Origin: a virus
Strand: one strand, 5' to 3'
Length of the DNA: 30,887 nucleotides
IMG/VR virus record: IMGVR_UViG_3300046472_000222
Coordinates: 1-30,887 of that record
The translations under genes were made by a program, and so were the position numbers. How positions within the stretch are numbered: the first letter of the stretch is position 1; the number at the start of each line of letters is the position of its first letter. The notes beneath the pieces were generated by a model. It did no database searches. It was not told the DNA's origin and was given only the letters and a program-made list of their open reading frames with translations. Below, piece after piece: positions 2,021-27,244 of this stretch.

Positions 2021-4495
2021 ATGCAACGCCTTCTGCTTTTGCTGCTCGCCTGCGCCGGGATTGCGCTCGGCCAGTACACGCCTCCGCCCGCCACCAGCGC
2101 TACGCCTTCCGGCCCGTGCGGTGGCGATCTGGGCGGCACGTATCCGAACTGCACGGTTACCGGCCAGCACTTCACTGTGCCGCTTGCCGCGAGCGCTGGC
2201 GGGGACGGGGTGAACAACGGGACTTTCACAACCACGTTGCTCGCAAACTTTGCACCAACAATTAATGGTGGCGCCTTCCTCGGTGCCGCAGACGGAGCAG
2301 CGTCACAGACGGCGCTGACGACGAAGCTGGGGGTGACTCCAGTGTATGGGGGCGGGGCTGTTACTAGTAACTGCGTGCCCTATGGAGTGAGCGGTGGCAC
2401 GGTGACATGCGCAACGGCAGATCCACTGACAACGACGGATGGCTGTCCAGAGTTAAGTGATCTCAATCAAGTTTGCCCATTGATTCCGCCCTATTATGCA
2501 TCCGGCTCTGGTGTTACTACCACGACAAGTGGGACAACGGCCCCTGGTACATCAGTTACTCTGGCCTCCGTCTCCACGTTTAGTACTAATCAAGGAATTT
2601 GGATAACTGGCGCTGGGCCTGTTAATGTGGCGGGTGGTACTTTCGCCTATGCGAGCGGCGGTACGGCTACGGGAACCGGGTTTTGCATTGCGAGCGCATC
2701 TAATGGTGGAGGCGGATTTGCTCGTGCCTCCGTATCGGTCTCTGCTGGAACTATCAGTGGAAATTTGACGCTGATATCAGGCGGACGGTCATTTGCATCG
2801 CCTCCCACGACATGGACCCTGGCGCTCCCCGCTAATTTAGCCAGCCCATCGACTCCGGCCGCTTTAACCTGCTCAGGGACTATCACCACAACCGGAGGGG
2901 CTCTTGTCGCCTCCAATTACGTCGGAACCATCACCGCGATCAATGGAAGCGTGCTTACGATATCCCCTGCAACCACTACCAGCGTTCCTACGGCTACCTT
3001 AGTCCAGCATGACGACACAGCGGCCCTGCGTGCAGTAATTGCCGTAATTGCCGCGTCGTCTACGCCTTCCATGAAAATGATCCTTCCCTCTGGGACCTAT
3101 AGGGTCAGCACTGAAGGCGGCTTTACGACCAGCAGCAGCATAAACTCTATCCTGGCCGTTCCGGAAGTTTCCTATCTGGATGGCTGGCCCGGAACTGCAA
3201 TTACCGGAAATTTGGCAGTCGTAGATATCGAGGGAATTCCCCCGAGTGCTCCATGTTACAACTATTTATCAGCAACCGCCGCGCCTTGCGTTTCTGGGGC
3301 GATCATCAAAACTGATTCCACTTTTGGTAGTGTTATCGGGGGAGGGCACTCTGCCGGCTATTCTGGCTTTACCGGAGTTCTCCTTTCCCTTAAGGGGCTG
3401 ACATTCAGGACGTATCACAATCCGGCCATATCGGCAATCAACGCCGCTCATATTGCAAACCTTAAAGTCGACAATATTACGGTTGATGTTGGCCAGACGG
3501 GGCTTCCCGGTGATCCTACGACGGGGCAGTCCTATGGATTGCAAGCTCCACTCACGGGCAATGGAGCGACAGTCAACCTCGGGCAAATTACCGTCACCGG
3601 ATACGCGGTCGGGGCGAGCATTTCAGAGTGGGCTGAAGTTGGGAATCTGCAACTTGTGGAGAATGTGTCATGCTTACTGGTGCCTGGGAATACGCATCCG
3701 ACGTTGATACATTTCTTACTAACGCAGGCATGCGCCTACCACGTAGTGGGCTCCGGAGCAGCCAGCAAGATTACAATCCAATCACACGGAACTGAAGATG
3801 CCTATATGTCCCTACCTAGCTGGGCAGTTACGCAAGATAATTATTACGATCCAAGCAATTTCCTGATCGGATCGGACGCCACGGATGGTGGCGTGGTACG
3901 TTCGGGAGCAACCAAGCTTTCCGTATCCTTACTGGGGGCCTTCCCGCAGGTCTATGCGAATGCCACATTGAGCAACATGCTTCTGAGTCCTCTCGCAAGG
4001 ACGGCGGGCGTAACGGGGCAGTTTAATGCTACCGTAGGCGGCCTCAATGTACTGACCTCAGGAAATAATAATTGGGGAGGAGGTATAAATTCTCTATTTG
4101 CGCTCACTACCGGCACAAAAAACACCGGCTCCGGGCAGGCTACCTGCGATACCATAATCACCGGCTCGCAGAATAGTTGCTTCGGCCAGGGGTCAGATGT
4201 GAACTCCAGTAGCGCGGCATTTCGAACAGTGATTGGAGCTAGCGCCGTAGGCACAGCCGACAACACGGTTACATTGGGGCGTTCGGCGGATACAGTGGTG
4301 ATTCCCGGAGCAACTACCGCGACGGGAGTTGTTACATTTACTGCTGCCCCACGTTTTAACGGCGGCAATACGACTGCTGCCGTTGTTGGGTTAATCGGGA
4401 CCACGTGTCCCGCTGTGACTTGTACCGCCGCTTTTACTTGGATGACGGTGACTACCTCTGATGGTAGTACCGGCTACATCCCGATTTGGAAATAA
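2021..4495 (+). CDS. Tailspike / tail fibre with signal peptide and beta-helix, 824 aa
   Basis: Likely receptor-binding or polysaccharide-contacting protein. Residues 1-18 (MQRLLLLLLACAGIALGQ) read as a Sec signal peptide, odd for a virion protein. GGDLGGTYPN at 34-43 matches a motif common at the N-terminus of phage and metagenomic fibre proteins. DDTAALRAVI from about residue 331, with LPSGTYRVS after it, is the usual entry into a pectate-lyase-like right-handed beta-helix. Near residues 737-765, VIGASAVGTADNTVTLGRSADTVVIPG resembles the repeat style of trimeric adhesin heads. The end, DGSTGYIPIWK, is typical of a fibre tip. Base composition is visibly more AT-rich than the head genes, suggesting separate acquisition. 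Enzymatic activity is not shown. Confidence 0.85.
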   Translation: MQRLLLLLLACAGIALGQYTPPPATSATPSGPCGGDLGGTYPNCTVTGQHFTVPLAASAGGDGVNNGTFTTTLLANFAPTINGGAFLGAADGAASQTALTTKLGVTPVYGGGAVTSNCVPYGVSGGTVTCATADPLTTTDGCPELSDLNQVCPLIPPYYASGSGVTTTTSGTTAPGTSVTLASVSTFSTNQGIWITGAGPVNVAGGTFAYASGGTATGTGFCIASASNGGGGFARASVSVSAGTISGNLTLISGGRSFASPPTTWTLALPANLASPSTPAALTCSGTITTTGGALVASNYVGTITAINGSVLTISPATTTSVPTATLVQHDDTAALRAVIAVIAASSTPSMKMILPSGTYRVSTEGGFTTSSSINSILAVPEVSYLDGWPGTAITGNLAVVDIEGIPPSAPCYNYLSATAAPCVSGAIIKTDSTFGSVIGGGHSAGYSGFTGVLLSLKGLTFRTYHNPAISAINAAHIANLKVDNITVDVGQTGLPGDPTTGQSYGLQAPLTGNGATVNLGQITVTGYAVGASISEWAEVGNLQLVENVSCLLVPGNTHPTLIHFLLTQACAYHVVGSGAASKITIQSHGTEDAYMSLPSWAVTQDNYYDPSNFLIGSDATDGGVVRSGATKLSVSLLGAFPQVYANATLSNMLLSPLARTAGVTGQFNATVGGLNVLTSGNNNWGGGINSLFALTTGTKNTGSGQATCDTIITGSQNSCFGQGSDVNSSSAAFRTVIGASAVGTADNTVTLGRSADTVVIPGATTATGVVTFTAAPRFNGGNTTAAVVGLIGTTCPAVTCTAAFTWMTVTTSDGSTGYIPIWK

Positions 4496-9275: not shown

Positions 9276-9392
9276 GAGGGAAAGGGAGTCATGCGCCGCT
9301 GTGTCGCCATCGGGTGCGCGGCGGCGTTCCTGTTTACGGAAGAAGGACGAGGCTTGTCGCATGAACCTTGCCGTCAATCCATCGAGGGTACT

Positions 9393-9860
9393 ATGAGCTT
9401 CAGCTATCAACAAGGTCAAAATCCACCCGTGGATTTTCCGAGAGGATTGACCGGCGACACGGTGGAGTTCAACCCAAACGGATCGCGCGCCTACATCTTC
9501 AGCGACCAGGAAATTACGATGTTCACCAACATCGCGCAGTCGGTCTGGCAAAGCTCGATGTTCTGGAGCGCATTCCAGGGCGTCGGTACGCTGCCATCCT
9601 CGCCGGTCTCTTATCTGAGGATTGCTTCGCTGATGATGGATGCTCTGGCCTCGAATAAGTCGCGCCTGGCTAGCGTGATCGCGCTGCTGGACGTGAAGCT
9701 CAGCCCGAAGGATGCGGCGATCCAGTGCCGCACGCAGGCTCAGGAGTACCGGGACGTAGACGACAATACAGGAGCGTTCGTGATCATCGAGCAGTGTAAC
9801 AACTACTGGTCATTCCGTGATCGCTTCTGGAACCAGTGGCAGAGGACGGCGGCGCAGTAA
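9393..9860 (+). CDS. Head-tail connector-type protein, 155 aa
   Basis: MSFSYQQGQNPPVDFPRGL, then a helical region (EITMFTNIAQSVWQSSMFW and YLRIASLMMDALASNKSRLASVIALLDVKLSPKDAA). Size and position right after the major capsid gene suit a portal-side adaptor. ATG 9393 has GAGGG four bases upstream. A longer in-frame start at 9291 (adding a cysteine-containing 34-residue N-terminus) is possible; its GGGAG lies too close to the start. An 11-codon frame (9361-9396) overlaps this ATG and could couple translation. Confidence 0.7.
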   Translation: MSFSYQQGQNPPVDFPRGLTGDTVEFNPNGSRAYIFSDQEITMFTNIAQSVWQSSMFWSAFQGVGTLPSSPVSYLRIASLMMDALASNKSRLASVIALLDVKLSPKDAAIQCRTQAQEYRDVDDNTGAFVIIEQCNNYWSFRDRFWNQWQRTAAQ

Positions 9861-23757: not shown

Positions 23758-23954
23758 AGCCCTGGGAGAAGCGTAACCGGCAACGGCAGGACGAGCGTGA
23801 GTTCTGCCCGGGTCCATGTCCCCGCCCCCTTATTTGCACGTGCGGCCACGACGCCGACGAGCACTCCGACGAGCCCTTCCTTGGGCCGTGCCAGCATCCC
23901 GGCTGCACGTGCAAGGCGTGGAGTGATGTGCTGGTTCTGACGGAGGCCAAATGA
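23754..23954 (+). CDS. 66-aa cysteine/histidine-rich protein
   Basis: GTG start overlapping the prior stop. Basic start (KPWEKRNRQRQDEREF), then CPGPCPRPLICTCGHDADEHSDE and GPCQHPGCTCKAW: at least eight Cys and three His in CxC / CxxxxC / CxC arrangements suggest a metal-binding cluster. Its ATGA-type junction with the next gene makes it part of the recombination operon. Function unknown. Confidence 0.75.
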   Translation: MKPWEKRNRQRQDEREFCPGPCPRPLICTCGHDADEHSDEPFLGPCQHPGCTCKAWSDVLVLTEAK

Positions 23955-24733
23955 GCCACGAAGTAGCGAAGCGCGAGGCCGCCGCGCCCGCGCGAATCGA
24001 GGACGCCCCACAGAGCCTACTTGAGGCGGTCATGCGCGAGGTCCGCAATCCGGACATGGACCCGGCGCGACTGCGGGAGTTCCTGGAGATCGGGGAGCGG
24101 CTAGAGGCTCGGCAGGCGAAGGCGCGATTTAACGACGCGTTCGCCGATCTGAAAGCGAAGCTTCCTGTCATTGACAAACGTGGGGTGGTGCTGAACAAGG
24201 CCGGCAAGGTCCAGTTCAAGTATGCCCGCTACGATGATCTGCACCGGGCGATCACGCCGCTGCTGTTGGAATTCGGGTTCTCGACGTCCTTCGATTTCGA
24301 GGAACCGGACGCGGGCAGGCTGACCACGATACTGCACCTGCGGCACCGCGGCGGCCATCAGGAAGACTTCCGCTGGACGCTCCCCGCGATGGGGCAGAAT
24401 CAGTTCGTGAGTAATCTCCAGAACGCAGCGGCCGCGCGAAGCTTTGGCAAGCGGTGCGTGCTGATCGATGCGCTGGACATCCTCACGGAGGATCAGGACA
24501 GCGATGGTCGACCGGTGGCACCGCCGGAGAAGATCACAGAGGAGCAGGCGATCAGGATTCGTGATATATGCGAAGCCTGCGAAGAGAAGGAGCCGGGATT
24601 CTATGCGCGGTTCAATAAATGGCGGAAGGCTGAACTTCAGAACGAGCACGTGTCCGACCTGTTCCAGGGCGAACAATACGAATCGGTGATGACGAAGCTG
24701 CGCGACAAGATGGCCGCGCTGGGGGTGAAATGA
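23951..24733 (+). CDS. erf: ERF-family single-strand annealing protein, 260 aa
   Basis: After a variable ~60-residue start the ERF signature appears: DLKAKLPVIDKRGVVLNKAGKVQFKYARYDDLHRAITPLLLEFGFS, with the usual helix-strand-helix order and a GHQEDFRWTLPAMG block further on. The C-terminus (EKITEEQAIRIRDICEACEEKEPGFYARFNKW) is a helical domain typical of phage annealers. It anneals complementary single strands in phage recombination, acting together with the nearby nucleases. Coupled to the next gene by ATGA. Confidence 0.85.
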   Translation: MSHEVAKREAAAPARIEDAPQSLLEAVMREVRNPDMDPARLREFLEIGERLEARQAKARFNDAFADLKAKLPVIDKRGVVLNKAGKVQFKYARYDDLHRAITPLLLEFGFSTSFDFEEPDAGRLTTILHLRHRGGHQEDFRWTLPAMGQNQFVSNLQNAAAARSFGKRCVLIDALDILTEDQDSDGRPVAPPEKITEEQAIRIRDICEACEEKEPGFYARFNKWRKAELQNEHVSDLFQGEQYESVMTKLRDKMAALGVK

Positions 24734-25296
24734 CGACGGTGTATTTTGATCTAGAAACGGGTGGCGTCAATGACGAACCGACCATCCAACTCGCCGCCGT
24801 AGCGGTCTCTGAGGATTGGAGGGAATTGGGTTATTTCGAGCATAAAATCAAGTTCGATCCCGAAGCGTGTAACCCAGAAGCACTAAAACTAAATGGCTAT
24901 TCCGCTGAAGCATGGAAAGACGCTATCGTTCCAGCGGGGGTCGCGATGAGGTTCTCCGCGTGGCTGAAGCCGCACAGCACGGTCGAGATGATTTCCAAGC
25001 GCACCGGGGCACCCTACAACGTCGCCAGACTGGCCGGTTACAACGCTCTCACGTTCGACCTTCCGAGGCTCCGTGCGATGTATGGCCAGAACTTCTTTCC
25101 GTGCTCCTACCACGTTCGGGACGTTCTACAGCGTGCTATGTTCTGGTTCGATGAGCATCCAGACGCGCAGCCAAAACCGAAGGATCTAAAGCTTTCCACT
25201 CTCTGCGAATACTTCGAGATCCCAAGCGAGGGAGCGCATGAGGCACTTACCGATGTGCGTATGACGGTCTCTCTGCATCGGATGCTGGCGCAGTGA
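24730..25296 (+). CDS. DnaQ-like DEDDh 3'-5' exonuclease, 188 aa
   Basis: All catalytic motifs are visible: YFDLETGG (motif I, Asp and Glu), YNALTFDLPRL (motif II Asp) and GAHEALTDVRMT (motif III, His and Asp of the DEDDh class). Between II and III it has a VRDVLQRAMFWF and KDLKLSTLCEYFEI stretch. Size is that of a lone proofreading-type exonuclease without a polymerase. In this operon it would trim 3' ends for recombination or act on host nucleic acid. Slightly more AT-rich in its first third. Confidence 0.9.
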   Translation: MTTVYFDLETGGVNDEPTIQLAAVAVSEDWRELGYFEHKIKFDPEACNPEALKLNGYSAEAWKDAIVPAGVAMRFSAWLKPHSTVEMISKRTGAPYNVARLAGYNALTFDLPRLRAMYGQNFFPCSYHVRDVLQRAMFWFDEHPDAQPKPKDLKLSTLCEYFEIPSEGAHEALTDVRMTVSLHRMLAQ

Positions 25297-26135
25297 TCCA
25301 CCACGCCGTAGTACAGGGCTCCGAAGAGTGGCTCCGCTTGCGACTCGGAATCCCGACCGCCAGCGAGTTCTCGCGCATCATCACGCCAAAGAAGTGGGAT
25401 CTTGCGGCCGGCCGCGCGCAGTACCGCGTCGAACTGCTGACCGAGATGATCCTCGGTGGACCGCTCGACGGCGTGACGACGCCAGCGATGTTGCACGGGA
25501 AAGACTGGGAGCCGAAGGCGCGGGCCGCGTACGAGATGCAGGAGGGTGTGGACGTCGAGGACTGCGGTTTCTGCACCGACGACGCTCGGACCTATGGAGC
25601 GAGTCCTGACGCGTTCGTGGGTGATGATGGATCACTCGAAATCAAGTGTCCCGAGAAGCCGGAGATTCACGTCGGCTATCTGCTCAACCCGGATTCATTC
25701 TCCGAATCGCACTGGGTCCAGGTACAGGGGCAACTGTTCGTCACCGGGCGCAAGTGGACCGACCTAATCAGCTACTTCATGGGAATCCCGATGGTACGCG
25801 TCAGGATCACGCCGCACGAAGAGTTCCAGGCGAAGCTGGCGGCGCACCTGCGAACTTTCCTGACGGAGTTGGACAGCCTCAAGGCCGTGGCGATCGAGCG
25901 CGGGTGCAAGTTCCATGAGGACAAGCCAGCGCCGCCAGCACCCGACCTCATCCGCGATATGACCACGCACGCCGACATCGAGGAGATGGTCGCGAGCGGC
26001 GCGATTGTTCCATGGCGCGTTCCGTGCCCGCTGTGCTCGAAGATGGAGGGCTACGGAGAAGCGCCCGGTGGCGTCTGCCCGCGCTGTGGTGGAGAGCGCA
26101 CGGTGGAAGCGATTGTTCCGGAGGGACGGGCGTGA
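25293..26135 (+). CDS. YqaJ-type viral recombinase nuclease with zinc-ribbon tail, 280 aa
   Basis: GSEEWLRLRLGIPTASEFSRII is the YqaJ/lambda-exonuclease opening. The nuclease core has GASPDAFVGDDGSLEIKCP, giving the D...ExK active site, and SHWVQVQGQLFVTG, the conserved Q-x-Q region. A C-terminal extension of about 60 residues carries CPLCSKMEGYG and CPRCGGERT, a zinc ribbon not in the minimal domain. With ERF this gives a Red-like 5'-3' exonuclease plus annealer pair. GTG start overlaps the exonuclease stop. Confidence 0.9.
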   Translation: MIHHAVVQGSEEWLRLRLGIPTASEFSRIITPKKWDLAAGRAQYRVELLTEMILGGPLDGVTTPAMLHGKDWEPKARAAYEMQEGVDVEDCGFCTDDARTYGASPDAFVGDDGSLEIKCPEKPEIHVGYLLNPDSFSESHWVQVQGQLFVTGRKWTDLISYFMGIPMVRVRITPHEEFQAKLAAHLRTFLTELDSLKAVAIERGCKFHEDKPAPPAPDLIRDMTTHADIEEMVASGAIVPWRVPCPLCSKMEGYGEAPGGVCPRCGGERTVEAIVPEGRA

Positions 26136-26395
26136 GTGCGGCTTCGGTACCTGAGTACAGCTTCAAGTTCGACAAAGCCAAGGATTCTTGGGTGTGCTCA
26201 GTTCATGGCGACGTGGACTCGATCGCTTGGGTGCCGTGTTGGGCTGGGTGCGATGAAGGAGAATTTGACGAGTACGAAGATGATCCAATCAGTTGCGATC
26301 CGGGAGACACATCCACTTGCTCAGAATGCAAGGGGGAAGGTGGATGGCGCGTCTGCGGAGAGTGCAATGCGAACAATCCAGATGCGGAATTTTAA
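26132..26395 (+). CDS. 87-aa zinc-binding protein ending the operon
   Basis: GTG start overlapping the previous stop (GTGA); a longer upstream reading of the frame lies inside the recombinase gene and is rejected. Sequence SAASVPEYSFKFDKAKDSWVC, then CWAGCDEGEFDEYEDDP, and CSECKGEGGWRVCGECNANNP, a DnaJ-like or zinc-ribbon pair. Strongly acidic. Followed within ten bases by a terminator. Confidence 0.75.
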   Translation: MSAASVPEYSFKFDKAKDSWVCSVHGDVDSIAWVPCWAGCDEGEFDEYEDDPISCDPGDTSTCSECKGEGGWRVCGECNANNPDAEF

Positions 26396-26403
26396 ATGAG
26401 TTG

Positions 26404-26434
26404 CGCCCCGTAGTTCGACGCGCGGGGCGGTTTT
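26404..26434 (+). terminator. Intrinsic terminator after recombination operon
   Basis: CGCCCCG (26404-26410), 12-base loop, CGGGGCG (26423-26429), then G and TTTT. Seven perfect GC-rich pairs plus a T-tract. It separates the operon from the structured non-coding region. Confidence 0.75.
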
Positions 26435-26761
26435 ACTGGCGTCGGCGTGGATGGTGCACGCACCTGTGGTTCCGTGAAGAGGTTAATCGGCGACCTGTGG
26501 AGATCAGCACCGCAGGTAATTGGACTGGCAACCTTTAGAAATTGCTAAACAAGCTGCCCGGTGACGACTCCGGGACTGGCGGTTAAGGAAACCCGCTTGG
26601 AAGATAAGACCTCGAACCTTACGGATGGAGCTGATCCGGGTCAGAACCGGAACGCCAGTTTAAGGGTTTCGCACCAAGCAGGCGCGCGGTGCGGAGAGTG
26701 GGCGCGGCAAGTCAGTCTCGGGGGAGGTGGCTGCCGCGCCTGCGATTTCAAAAGGAGAGAT
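26435..26761 (+). ncRNA. Structured non-coding region / leader RNA upstream of 26762
   Basis: About 330 bases without convincing coding sequence but dense in hairpins. In order: ACCTGTGG (26493-26500) with CCGCAGGT (26510-26517), and an extra ACCTGTGG at 26462 that could compete; TTTAG/CTAAA (26534-26549); CCCGG/CCGGG (26557-26574); a 79-base enclosed domain closed by ACTGGCG/CGCCAGT (26575-26581/26653-26659) with TAAGG/CCTTA and TCCGG/CCGGA inside; GCACC/GGTGC (26671-26692); and a nine-pair GGCGCGGCA/TGCCGCGCC stem (26701-26740) just ahead of the AAAGGAGAG ribosome site. Stems are perfect or have one wobble. No tRNA, SRP or known riboswitch motif fits. No clear promoter seen; it could be a separate RNA or the leader of the next gene. 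Confidence 0.5.
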
Positions 26762-27244
26762 ATGCCGAGTATAACTTTCAGTGGTGTTGTTCTTGAGAAA
26801 GCCGACCGTGTCAGCGCGGCGGCAACGCTTCACTTCGCATGCGAACTTACCGCAAGCGTCGTGAAACACATGAAGTGGGGGGACCTTCCGGACGCGGCAA
26901 AGAAGGCCCTGATGGACGGCCAGTTCGCCGGCGGAAGCTTCGTGCTTTCTCCGAAGGAAGCTCGCCAGACGCAAATCGTGGGCACGCTGCCAGACGAGAT
27001 GCAAGCGGCTGTCCTGACGGTTGGCGGGTTCGTCATCACGCGCATGCAAATCGAGGGATCGCGCGGGAAGGGCGTCAAGCGCCGGATCAACTTCGTTCTC
27101 AAGAGCGCGGACGCGGACGCCGCGGCGAAGGCCGAGGCGTGGCTCACGATGGCCGGAGACACCCGCGGCTCTCTGCGGATTGAATACTCCGCGATGGGTT
27201 CGGCGGTGACCGAGGTCGGCGAGGAAGGGGAAGACGAGGAATGA
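26762..27244 (+). CDS. Acidic-tailed protein, possible ssDNA-binding role, 160 aa
   Basis: ATG 26762 has AAAGGAG upstream; the frame extending to 26561 runs through hairpins and is rejected. The fold is strand-rich: SITFSGVVLEKADRVSAAATLHFACELTASV, FVITRMQIEGSRGKGVKRRINFVLKSADADAA, then SLRIEYSAMG and a tail VTEVGEEGEDEE. An acidic C-terminus recalls the protein-interaction tails of SSB, T7 gp2.5 and T4 gp32. Position between recombination enzymes and a nuclease fits. It is not a recognised SSB fold; treat as hypothesis. Confidence 0.7.
   Translation: MPSITFSGVVLEKADRVSAAATLHFACELTASVVKHMKWGDLPDAAKKALMDGQFAGGSFVLSPKEARQTQIVGTLPDEMQAAVLTVGGFVITRMQIEGSRGKGVKRRINFVLKSADADAAAKAEAWLTMAGDTRGSLRIEYSAMGSAVTEVGEEGEDEE

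Follow-up and report, generated by a model that had tools for sequence, protein, structure and literature searches.

A recurring, covarying RNA hairpin with a conserved tip at gene junctions of unrelated phages

In the boxB/nut hairpins and in the coat-protein operators of RNA phages, a variable stem offers a conserved tip to a protein. Hairpins are also found at the ends of structural genes; T7 Tphi, for example, is an intrinsic terminator located after a phage capsid gene. A further cis-acting phage RNA, the put RNA of HK022, is active without any phage protein and could in principle be used by any phage of the host (PMC9378689). It consists of two stem-loops and contacts the beta-prime zinc-binding domain of RNA polymerase (PMC9378689). 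REP and REPIN sequences, in turn, are short intergenic palindromes (PMC3733652, PMC8266576). Among candidate RNA motifs, Table 1 of Weinberg et al. (2010; PMC2864571) describes Solibacter-1 and Soil-1 as restricted to Solibacter usitatus or soil samples; there, both are rated as uncertain RNAs and lack Rfam accessions (PMC2864571).

The DNA analyzed here (the window) is an IMG/VR virus record of 30,887 bases, without taxonomy in the record. The original prediction described a gap of some 330 nt in its recombination block as hairpin-rich phage RNA. As detailed below, a single 46-nt hairpin at the 3′ end of this gap (26437-26761), hairpin B, belongs to a family that recurs in other phage and environmental DNA. 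The existence of the family is well supported, and hairpin B, which matches no catalogued RNA family, is probably an undescribed gene-control signal.

The gap and its genomic setting

The right part of the window is a recombination block with the following features:

23951-24733: Erf-like annealing protein
24730-25296: RNase T-type exonuclease
25293-26135, plus strand: YqaJ-like recombinase, upstream of the gap
26132-26395, plus strand: small ORF with a GTG start, Cys-rich with CxxC motifs, of atypical codon-phase composition
26404-26434, plus strand: terminator-like hairpin of 7 bp with a 12-nt loop, followed by TTTT, after the small ORF
26437-26660, plus strand: non-coding stretch without detectable structural constraint, as judged by fold z, codon phase and covariance model R2
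26479-26612, plus strand: marginal FMN-riboswitch-like match
26667-26696, plus strand: hairpin A, stable, 9+2 bp
26762-27244, plus strand: gene for a 160-aa protein, predicted to be beta-rich, from a phage family of unknown function
27241 (start): weak Holliday-junction-resolvase match

The small ORF at 26132-26395 carries pairs of CxxC motifs and a flat codon-phase composition unlike that of the adjoining genes, and it may have been acquired recently along with the gap. A phage protein that is otherwise unrelated (G002:6223-6339, minus strand) carries a tail about 60% identical to the Cys-rich tail of the YqaJ-like protein (PCPLCSKMEGYGEAPGGVCPRCGG, window 26010-26130), and the common tail reads as a swapped zinc-ribbon tail.

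That the gap is non-coding and lies behind a terminator-like hairpin, much as originally proposed, was borne out by the sequence, codon phase and codon scores. The arms of the terminator-like hairpin (CGCCCCG at 26404-26410 and CGGGGCG at 26423-26429) precede TTTT at 26431-26434; the hairpin is absent from a consensus scan because its loop spans 12 nt and only four T follow. GC content by codon position is flat across the gap (0.59/0.58/0.59), in contrast to the downstream gene (0.66/0.47/0.75), and codon scores fall below zero in each of the six frames. A GTG frame, 26561-27244, leads from within the gap in frame into the gene at 26762; relatives of the encoded protein align to the ATG at 26762 rather than to this longer frame.

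The structure ascribed to the gap fared less well. Compared with shuffled sequence, the whole region has a fold z of -1.89, and 120-nt windows starting between 26380 and 26600 range from -1.2 to +1.0. Only the 3′ end stands out clearly: 26660-26779 reaches -5.2, whereas 122 background windows average -0.16 and go no lower than -4.1. Hairpin A and hairpin B at 26698-26743 thus have statistical support. The predicted perfect nine-pair stem ahead of the ribosome site is present (26701-26709/26732-26740). The "at least six stems" do exist, but outside the 3′ end they are indistinguishable from shuffled sequence, and the 120-nt windows lend no statistical support to a closed multi-branch domain at 26575-26659. 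Moreover, R2, a single-sequence covariance model of 26479-26613, found no relative among 46 related phage records or in 234 kb of loci, and BLAST against 42 phages returned nothing for the 5′ part. On the fold z and these searches, a structured RNA of 330 nt was rejected; the impression of a hairpin-rich RNA is wrong for most of that length.

The 5′ part had also been credited with a switch-like feature, in which two copies of one sequence compete for a partner. Both copies of ACCTGTGG exist (26462-26469 and 26493-26500) and either can pair with CCGCAGGT, but two 8-nt direct repeats per 421 nt are close to chance expectation. With no such leader ahead of relatives of the 26762 protein and no relative of the 5′ domain, the switch idea is unsupported. 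Placement of the gap before a recombination-block gene would be in keeping with a metabolite riboswitch in this 5′ domain, or with an autoregulatory leader for the protein encoded at 26762 after the manner of T4 gp32, and a permissive Rfam scan of 421 nt did return the FMN riboswitch (RF00050) at 24.5 bits, E 0.0014. The E value rises to 0.037 in an 11-kb scan, the match is absent from whole-window scans, and no Rfam model matches the window at gathering scores. Its score lies far below the FMN gathering cut-off of 66.2, and the FMN riboswitch was rejected because the conserved junction motifs are unmatched as well: at the FMN junctions GGGCA (J1/2), CCGAC (J5/6) and GGAUG (J6/1), taken in part from the model consensus, cmscan aligned GGCGAC, ACUGGC and CUUGGAA. 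In 33 phage records, the best chance match to the FMN model reached only 10.8 bits.

The leader idea was further assessed through relatives of the downstream protein. Direct scans with this protein and with the YqaJ-like recombinase found no relatives; a scan with a capsid profile yielded 80 related phage contigs. Relatives of the 26762 protein occur in 11 of 42 related phages searched (20-42% identity, best E 6.5e-32), the closest being that of G023 at 42% identity. The regions upstream of these 11 genes are mostly coding or unrelated, and the covariance models R1-R3 found no equivalent RNA leader there, G023 included, which is evidence against autoregulation through a conserved leader. The gp32-like proposal is thus unsupported and, with R2 lacking relatives, a leader or riboswitch appears highly improbable. 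The 5′ part is accordingly treated as unconstrained spacer; it could conceivably be a lineage-specific RNA.

The description of the 26762 protein as SSB-like is unproven. Neither Pfam nor PHROG gave a match, to an SSB family or otherwise, and the acidic tail is not strictly conserved. The predicted fold is beta-rich (pLDDT 81); in a fold search, scores stayed at Z of about 6 (best 6.5, below the level that counts) for Sen1/SETX barrel domains and a tail protein of a phage, and no SSB was listed. The family, which has no Pfam or PHROG assignment, comprises 12 members, the window protein and those at L110-L120, located in recombination or replication blocks and sharing the motifs AMGW and EGxKGKGxRxELRF.

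Some of these homologues have conspicuous upstream sequences of their own. In G018 (L112, about 2750-2990, minus strand), a gap of 243 nt upstream of the homologue holds two long and very strong hairpins, unrelated in sequence to the window. This region was considered as the same RNA on account of its hairpins and CGGGACTGG similarity and rejected, as neither R2 nor R3 matches it. In G025 (L117), the sequence just upstream of the homologue forms a highly stable hairpin (z -6.2), probably a terminator, that combines an 11-bp ATCAGCAGCCG/CGGCTGCTGAT stem and a T run. In G009 (L114), a near-perfect tandem repeat of about 45 bp (GGGACTCGAAGCCGTGGCATGGCCAAGTGATTCACTGGAAGCGGT) is present in three copies at the end of the ORF upstream of the homologue.

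Hairpin B and its relatives

Three features define the 3′ end of the gap:

26698-26743, plus strand: hairpin B, which belongs to an RNA hairpin family that recurs and covaries (covariance model R3, 42.8 bits, E 6.8e-9)
26712-26730, plus strand: conserved tip of hairpin B, UCAG-UCUC-GGGG-GAGG-UGG (consensus NNRA-UCUC-GGNG-GAGG-UGG)
26753-26757, plus strand: Shine-Dalgarno sequence AGGAG of the gene at 26762, identified from the sequence and outside hairpin B

The family shares a long, GC-rich outer stem, variable in sequence but complementary in every member, that carries the conserved tip. In the tip, four bases on the 5′ side (NNRA) face three on the 3′ side (UGG) to form an asymmetric internal loop, above which UCUC and GAGG pair as a short stem capped by a GGNG loop. 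The base 5′ of UCUC is A, less often G and once U, and lies opposite an invariant U; therefore, an A-U or G-U pair is possible before UCUC. In the window, the stem requires a bulged A.

Relatives emerged from several searches. R1, a covariance model of the 3′ part (26660-26745) built from the window alone, matched directly 3′ of the gene for the major capsid protein in G001, G009, G010 and G026, and plain BLAST also pointed to a post-capsid hairpin. Among the regions that follow 70-odd capsid genes, at least nine distinct phages have hairpins in which quite dissimilar stems carry one common tip, CTCGGGGGAG(G). An exact scan of IMG/VR for the 16-nt core TCTCGGGGGAGGTGGC returned 43 contigs, about half of them with complementary flanks in non-coding sequence; roughly half lie in coding frames, look like chance matches and were rejected as members. 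In all, about twenty other phage or environmental DNA fragments carry a relative with the tip nearly unchanged, at post-capsid sites of related phages and at about a dozen unrelated loci. Because most members, the post-capsid ones excepted, came from the exact-core search, their uniform tip is partly a product of the method. R3, the family covariance model, detected a member with the altered loop GGCG, 3′ of a terminase gene in G019, and gave exactly one match in nearly every phage record with a match. A BLAST match in G002, near the homologue of the YqaJ tail, was discarded since it sits inside a methyltransferase-like gene. No copy of hairpin A was found elsewhere. After the capsid gene in L020, L075 and L076, hairpins have the loop TCTTCCTCCGAG, which comes close to the conserved tip read as its reverse complement (CTCGGAGGAAGA); judging by these letters, the same element is possibly present there in inverted form.

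The outer stems covary. For 19 aligned members, the covariation score is 0.406, compared with 0.170 ± 0.026 after shuffling (0 of 500 shuffles as high), and 66 cells are changed on both sides where 33.8 are expected; with the register slid, covariation never exceeds 0.196. Because this first set had been picked as hairpin-like, the test was redone on all 32 thinned matches, unselected. Pairing then averaged 6.47 of 11 positions, compared with 4.96 after arms were swapped between members (0 of 5000), and seven matches had at least 10 of 11 pairs (0.06 expected). Covariation in homologous intergenic regions, the check advocated at the outset, is thus found for the last hairpin of the gap and for nothing else. 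What survives of the structured phage RNA is a conserved hairpin of 46 nt and not a multi-domain RNA of 330 nt.

The same alignments bear on whether the constraint acts on DNA or on RNA. Short intergenic palindromes spread over differing loci, one of them (L179) near a TnpB gene, would suit a DNA-level element such as a REP-like palindrome or a site for a protein or HUH nuclease. The stems are, however, unrelated between copies, and most phages have a single copy. Furthermore, in strong stems chosen without regard to strand, 12 G·U pairs stand against 2 A·C mismatches (p 0.006), an excess that implies constraint on the RNA of the G-rich strand; in the window this is the plus strand, that of the gene at 26762. 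A DNA-level element is therefore considered very unlikely.

Family positions and proposed function

The core usually starts 17-73 nt past the upstream stop codon; the window copy, 321 nt from the nearest one, is more distant. Many members follow Mu-gpT-like capsid genes; others follow a terminase gene (G019) or lysozyme (L178). L155 separates terminase from a further gene and is oriented against its neighbors. L187 has P22-like head and tail genes in its vicinity, L175 a replication initiator, L165 an integrase and L179 a TnpB gene. L174 adjoins a PEP-CTERM gene in a chromosomal-looking locus.

Such placement close behind stop codons, together with a post-capsid site that recalls phage capsid terminators, raises the question of whether the family consists of intrinsic terminators or 3′-end stabilizing hairpins, with the tip a favored stable cap that has no partner. 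T-rich sequence follows the stem in about half of the copies (for example, L158, L164, L149, G003 and L187), and thus some members may be ordinary terminators. As an account of the whole family, this reading is somewhat doubtful. The window copy is followed by TGCGATTTCAAAAGG, which holds no U tract (TGCGATTTC stands directly after the stem, without a U run), and the terminator scan gave none on the plus strand; U tracts are likewise missing from L183, L185, L172, L151, L174, L175 and L176. A plain terminator, moreover, would have no need of an internal loop and tip conserved across unrelated loci.

The tip could alternatively act in translation. GGAGGUG is the full complement of the 16S 3′ end, so this invariant, perfect Shine-Dalgarno sequence, paired with UCUC, might be a masked one that controls translation of the next gene or ribosome standby, and in many members the next start codon lies about 20-50 nt downstream. 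This spacing is too great for a normal Shine-Dalgarno sequence, and a second one lies nearer the start in the window, L187, L183 and G019; masking is hence an unlikely function of the tip.

In several post-capsid copies, the tip can also be read in frame as LGGGG, a possible N-terminal extension. The frame differs in G001 and is broken in L063-L068; therefore, coding cannot account for all copies and was rejected as the explanation. Downstream of the capsid stop codon in many relatives, an open frame with an upstream start overlaps the hairpin and gives the next head protein a short hydrophobic N-terminal extension, MRRAARLVLGGGGLAAAALFLMSFSY-like (L073 963-1090, L033, L060; window 9291-9400). 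This may be a real dual-use region or an alternative start.

With moderate confidence, we propose that the functional part of the gap is one cis-acting hairpin, 26698-26743, of an undescribed family, whose tip is read by a putative trans-acting factor. The variable GC-rich stem presents the conserved tip at a gene junction, where the factor would recognize it in nascent or mature mRNA. This factor would probably be a host RNA-binding protein or the transcription or translation machinery; a host factor is likelier than a phage protein since the tip is common to unrelated phages and a chromosome-like locus. Recognition might then set readthrough, processing or stability at the junction, ribosome standby being another candidate outcome, and the remainder of the 330 nt would be spacer. 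Against this proposal stand the bulged A and the distant stop codon of the window copy, the partly built-in uniformity of the tip, the LGGGG reading, the reversed L155 and the T-rich sequence after about half of the stems. More broadly, and more tentatively, the family can be viewed as an RNA recognition element (stem-NNRA-UCUC-GGNG-GAGG-UGG-stem) that unrelated phages, and probably soil hosts too, place at capsid, terminase and other junctions, where a putative host factor tunes expression. Soil acidobacteria are our guess for the hosts, based on sample sources and the one PEP-CTERM neighbor.

That a small covarying RNA missing from Rfam is common to unrelated phages points to a recognition system in little-studied bacteria, probably of soil, or in their phages. 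The strict tip could readily serve as bait in the search for its binding factor, and the position after capsid and terminase genes marks a candidate control point for structural gene dosage.

Comparison with described elements

Permissive scans with Rfam 15 of the window region and of the relatives' loci gave no credible match over hairpin B, BLAST for a 47-nt relative found none in GenBank phages or plasmids, and the tip sequence string was not found in a relevant context in the open-access literature. Hairpin B could be the same element as Solibacter-1 or Soil-1. If new, it adds one more orphan cis-RNA motif, of interest mainly because unrelated phages share it.

The likeness to HK022 put is that of a cis-acting phage RNA structure. 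However, put lies near early promoters and folds its roughly 70 nt into two stem-loops (PMC9378689), whereas the present element is a single 46-nt hairpin in an intergenic position, often a capsid junction. With boxB/nut hairpins and coat-protein operators, hairpin B shares a variable stem and conserved tip, its own partner being putative; the tip sequence and internal loop differ from theirs. Capsid terminators such as T7 Tphi likewise place a GC-rich hairpin just past the major capsid gene, but the hairpin B family has a conserved tip, often lacks a U tract and occupies other gene junctions too. Finally, the family resembles REP/REPIN sequences in being short intergenic palindromes; REP sequences, however, are near-identical and occur many times in a genome, whereas stems in the hairpin B family are unrelated and nearly all phage records searched that have an R3 match have just one.
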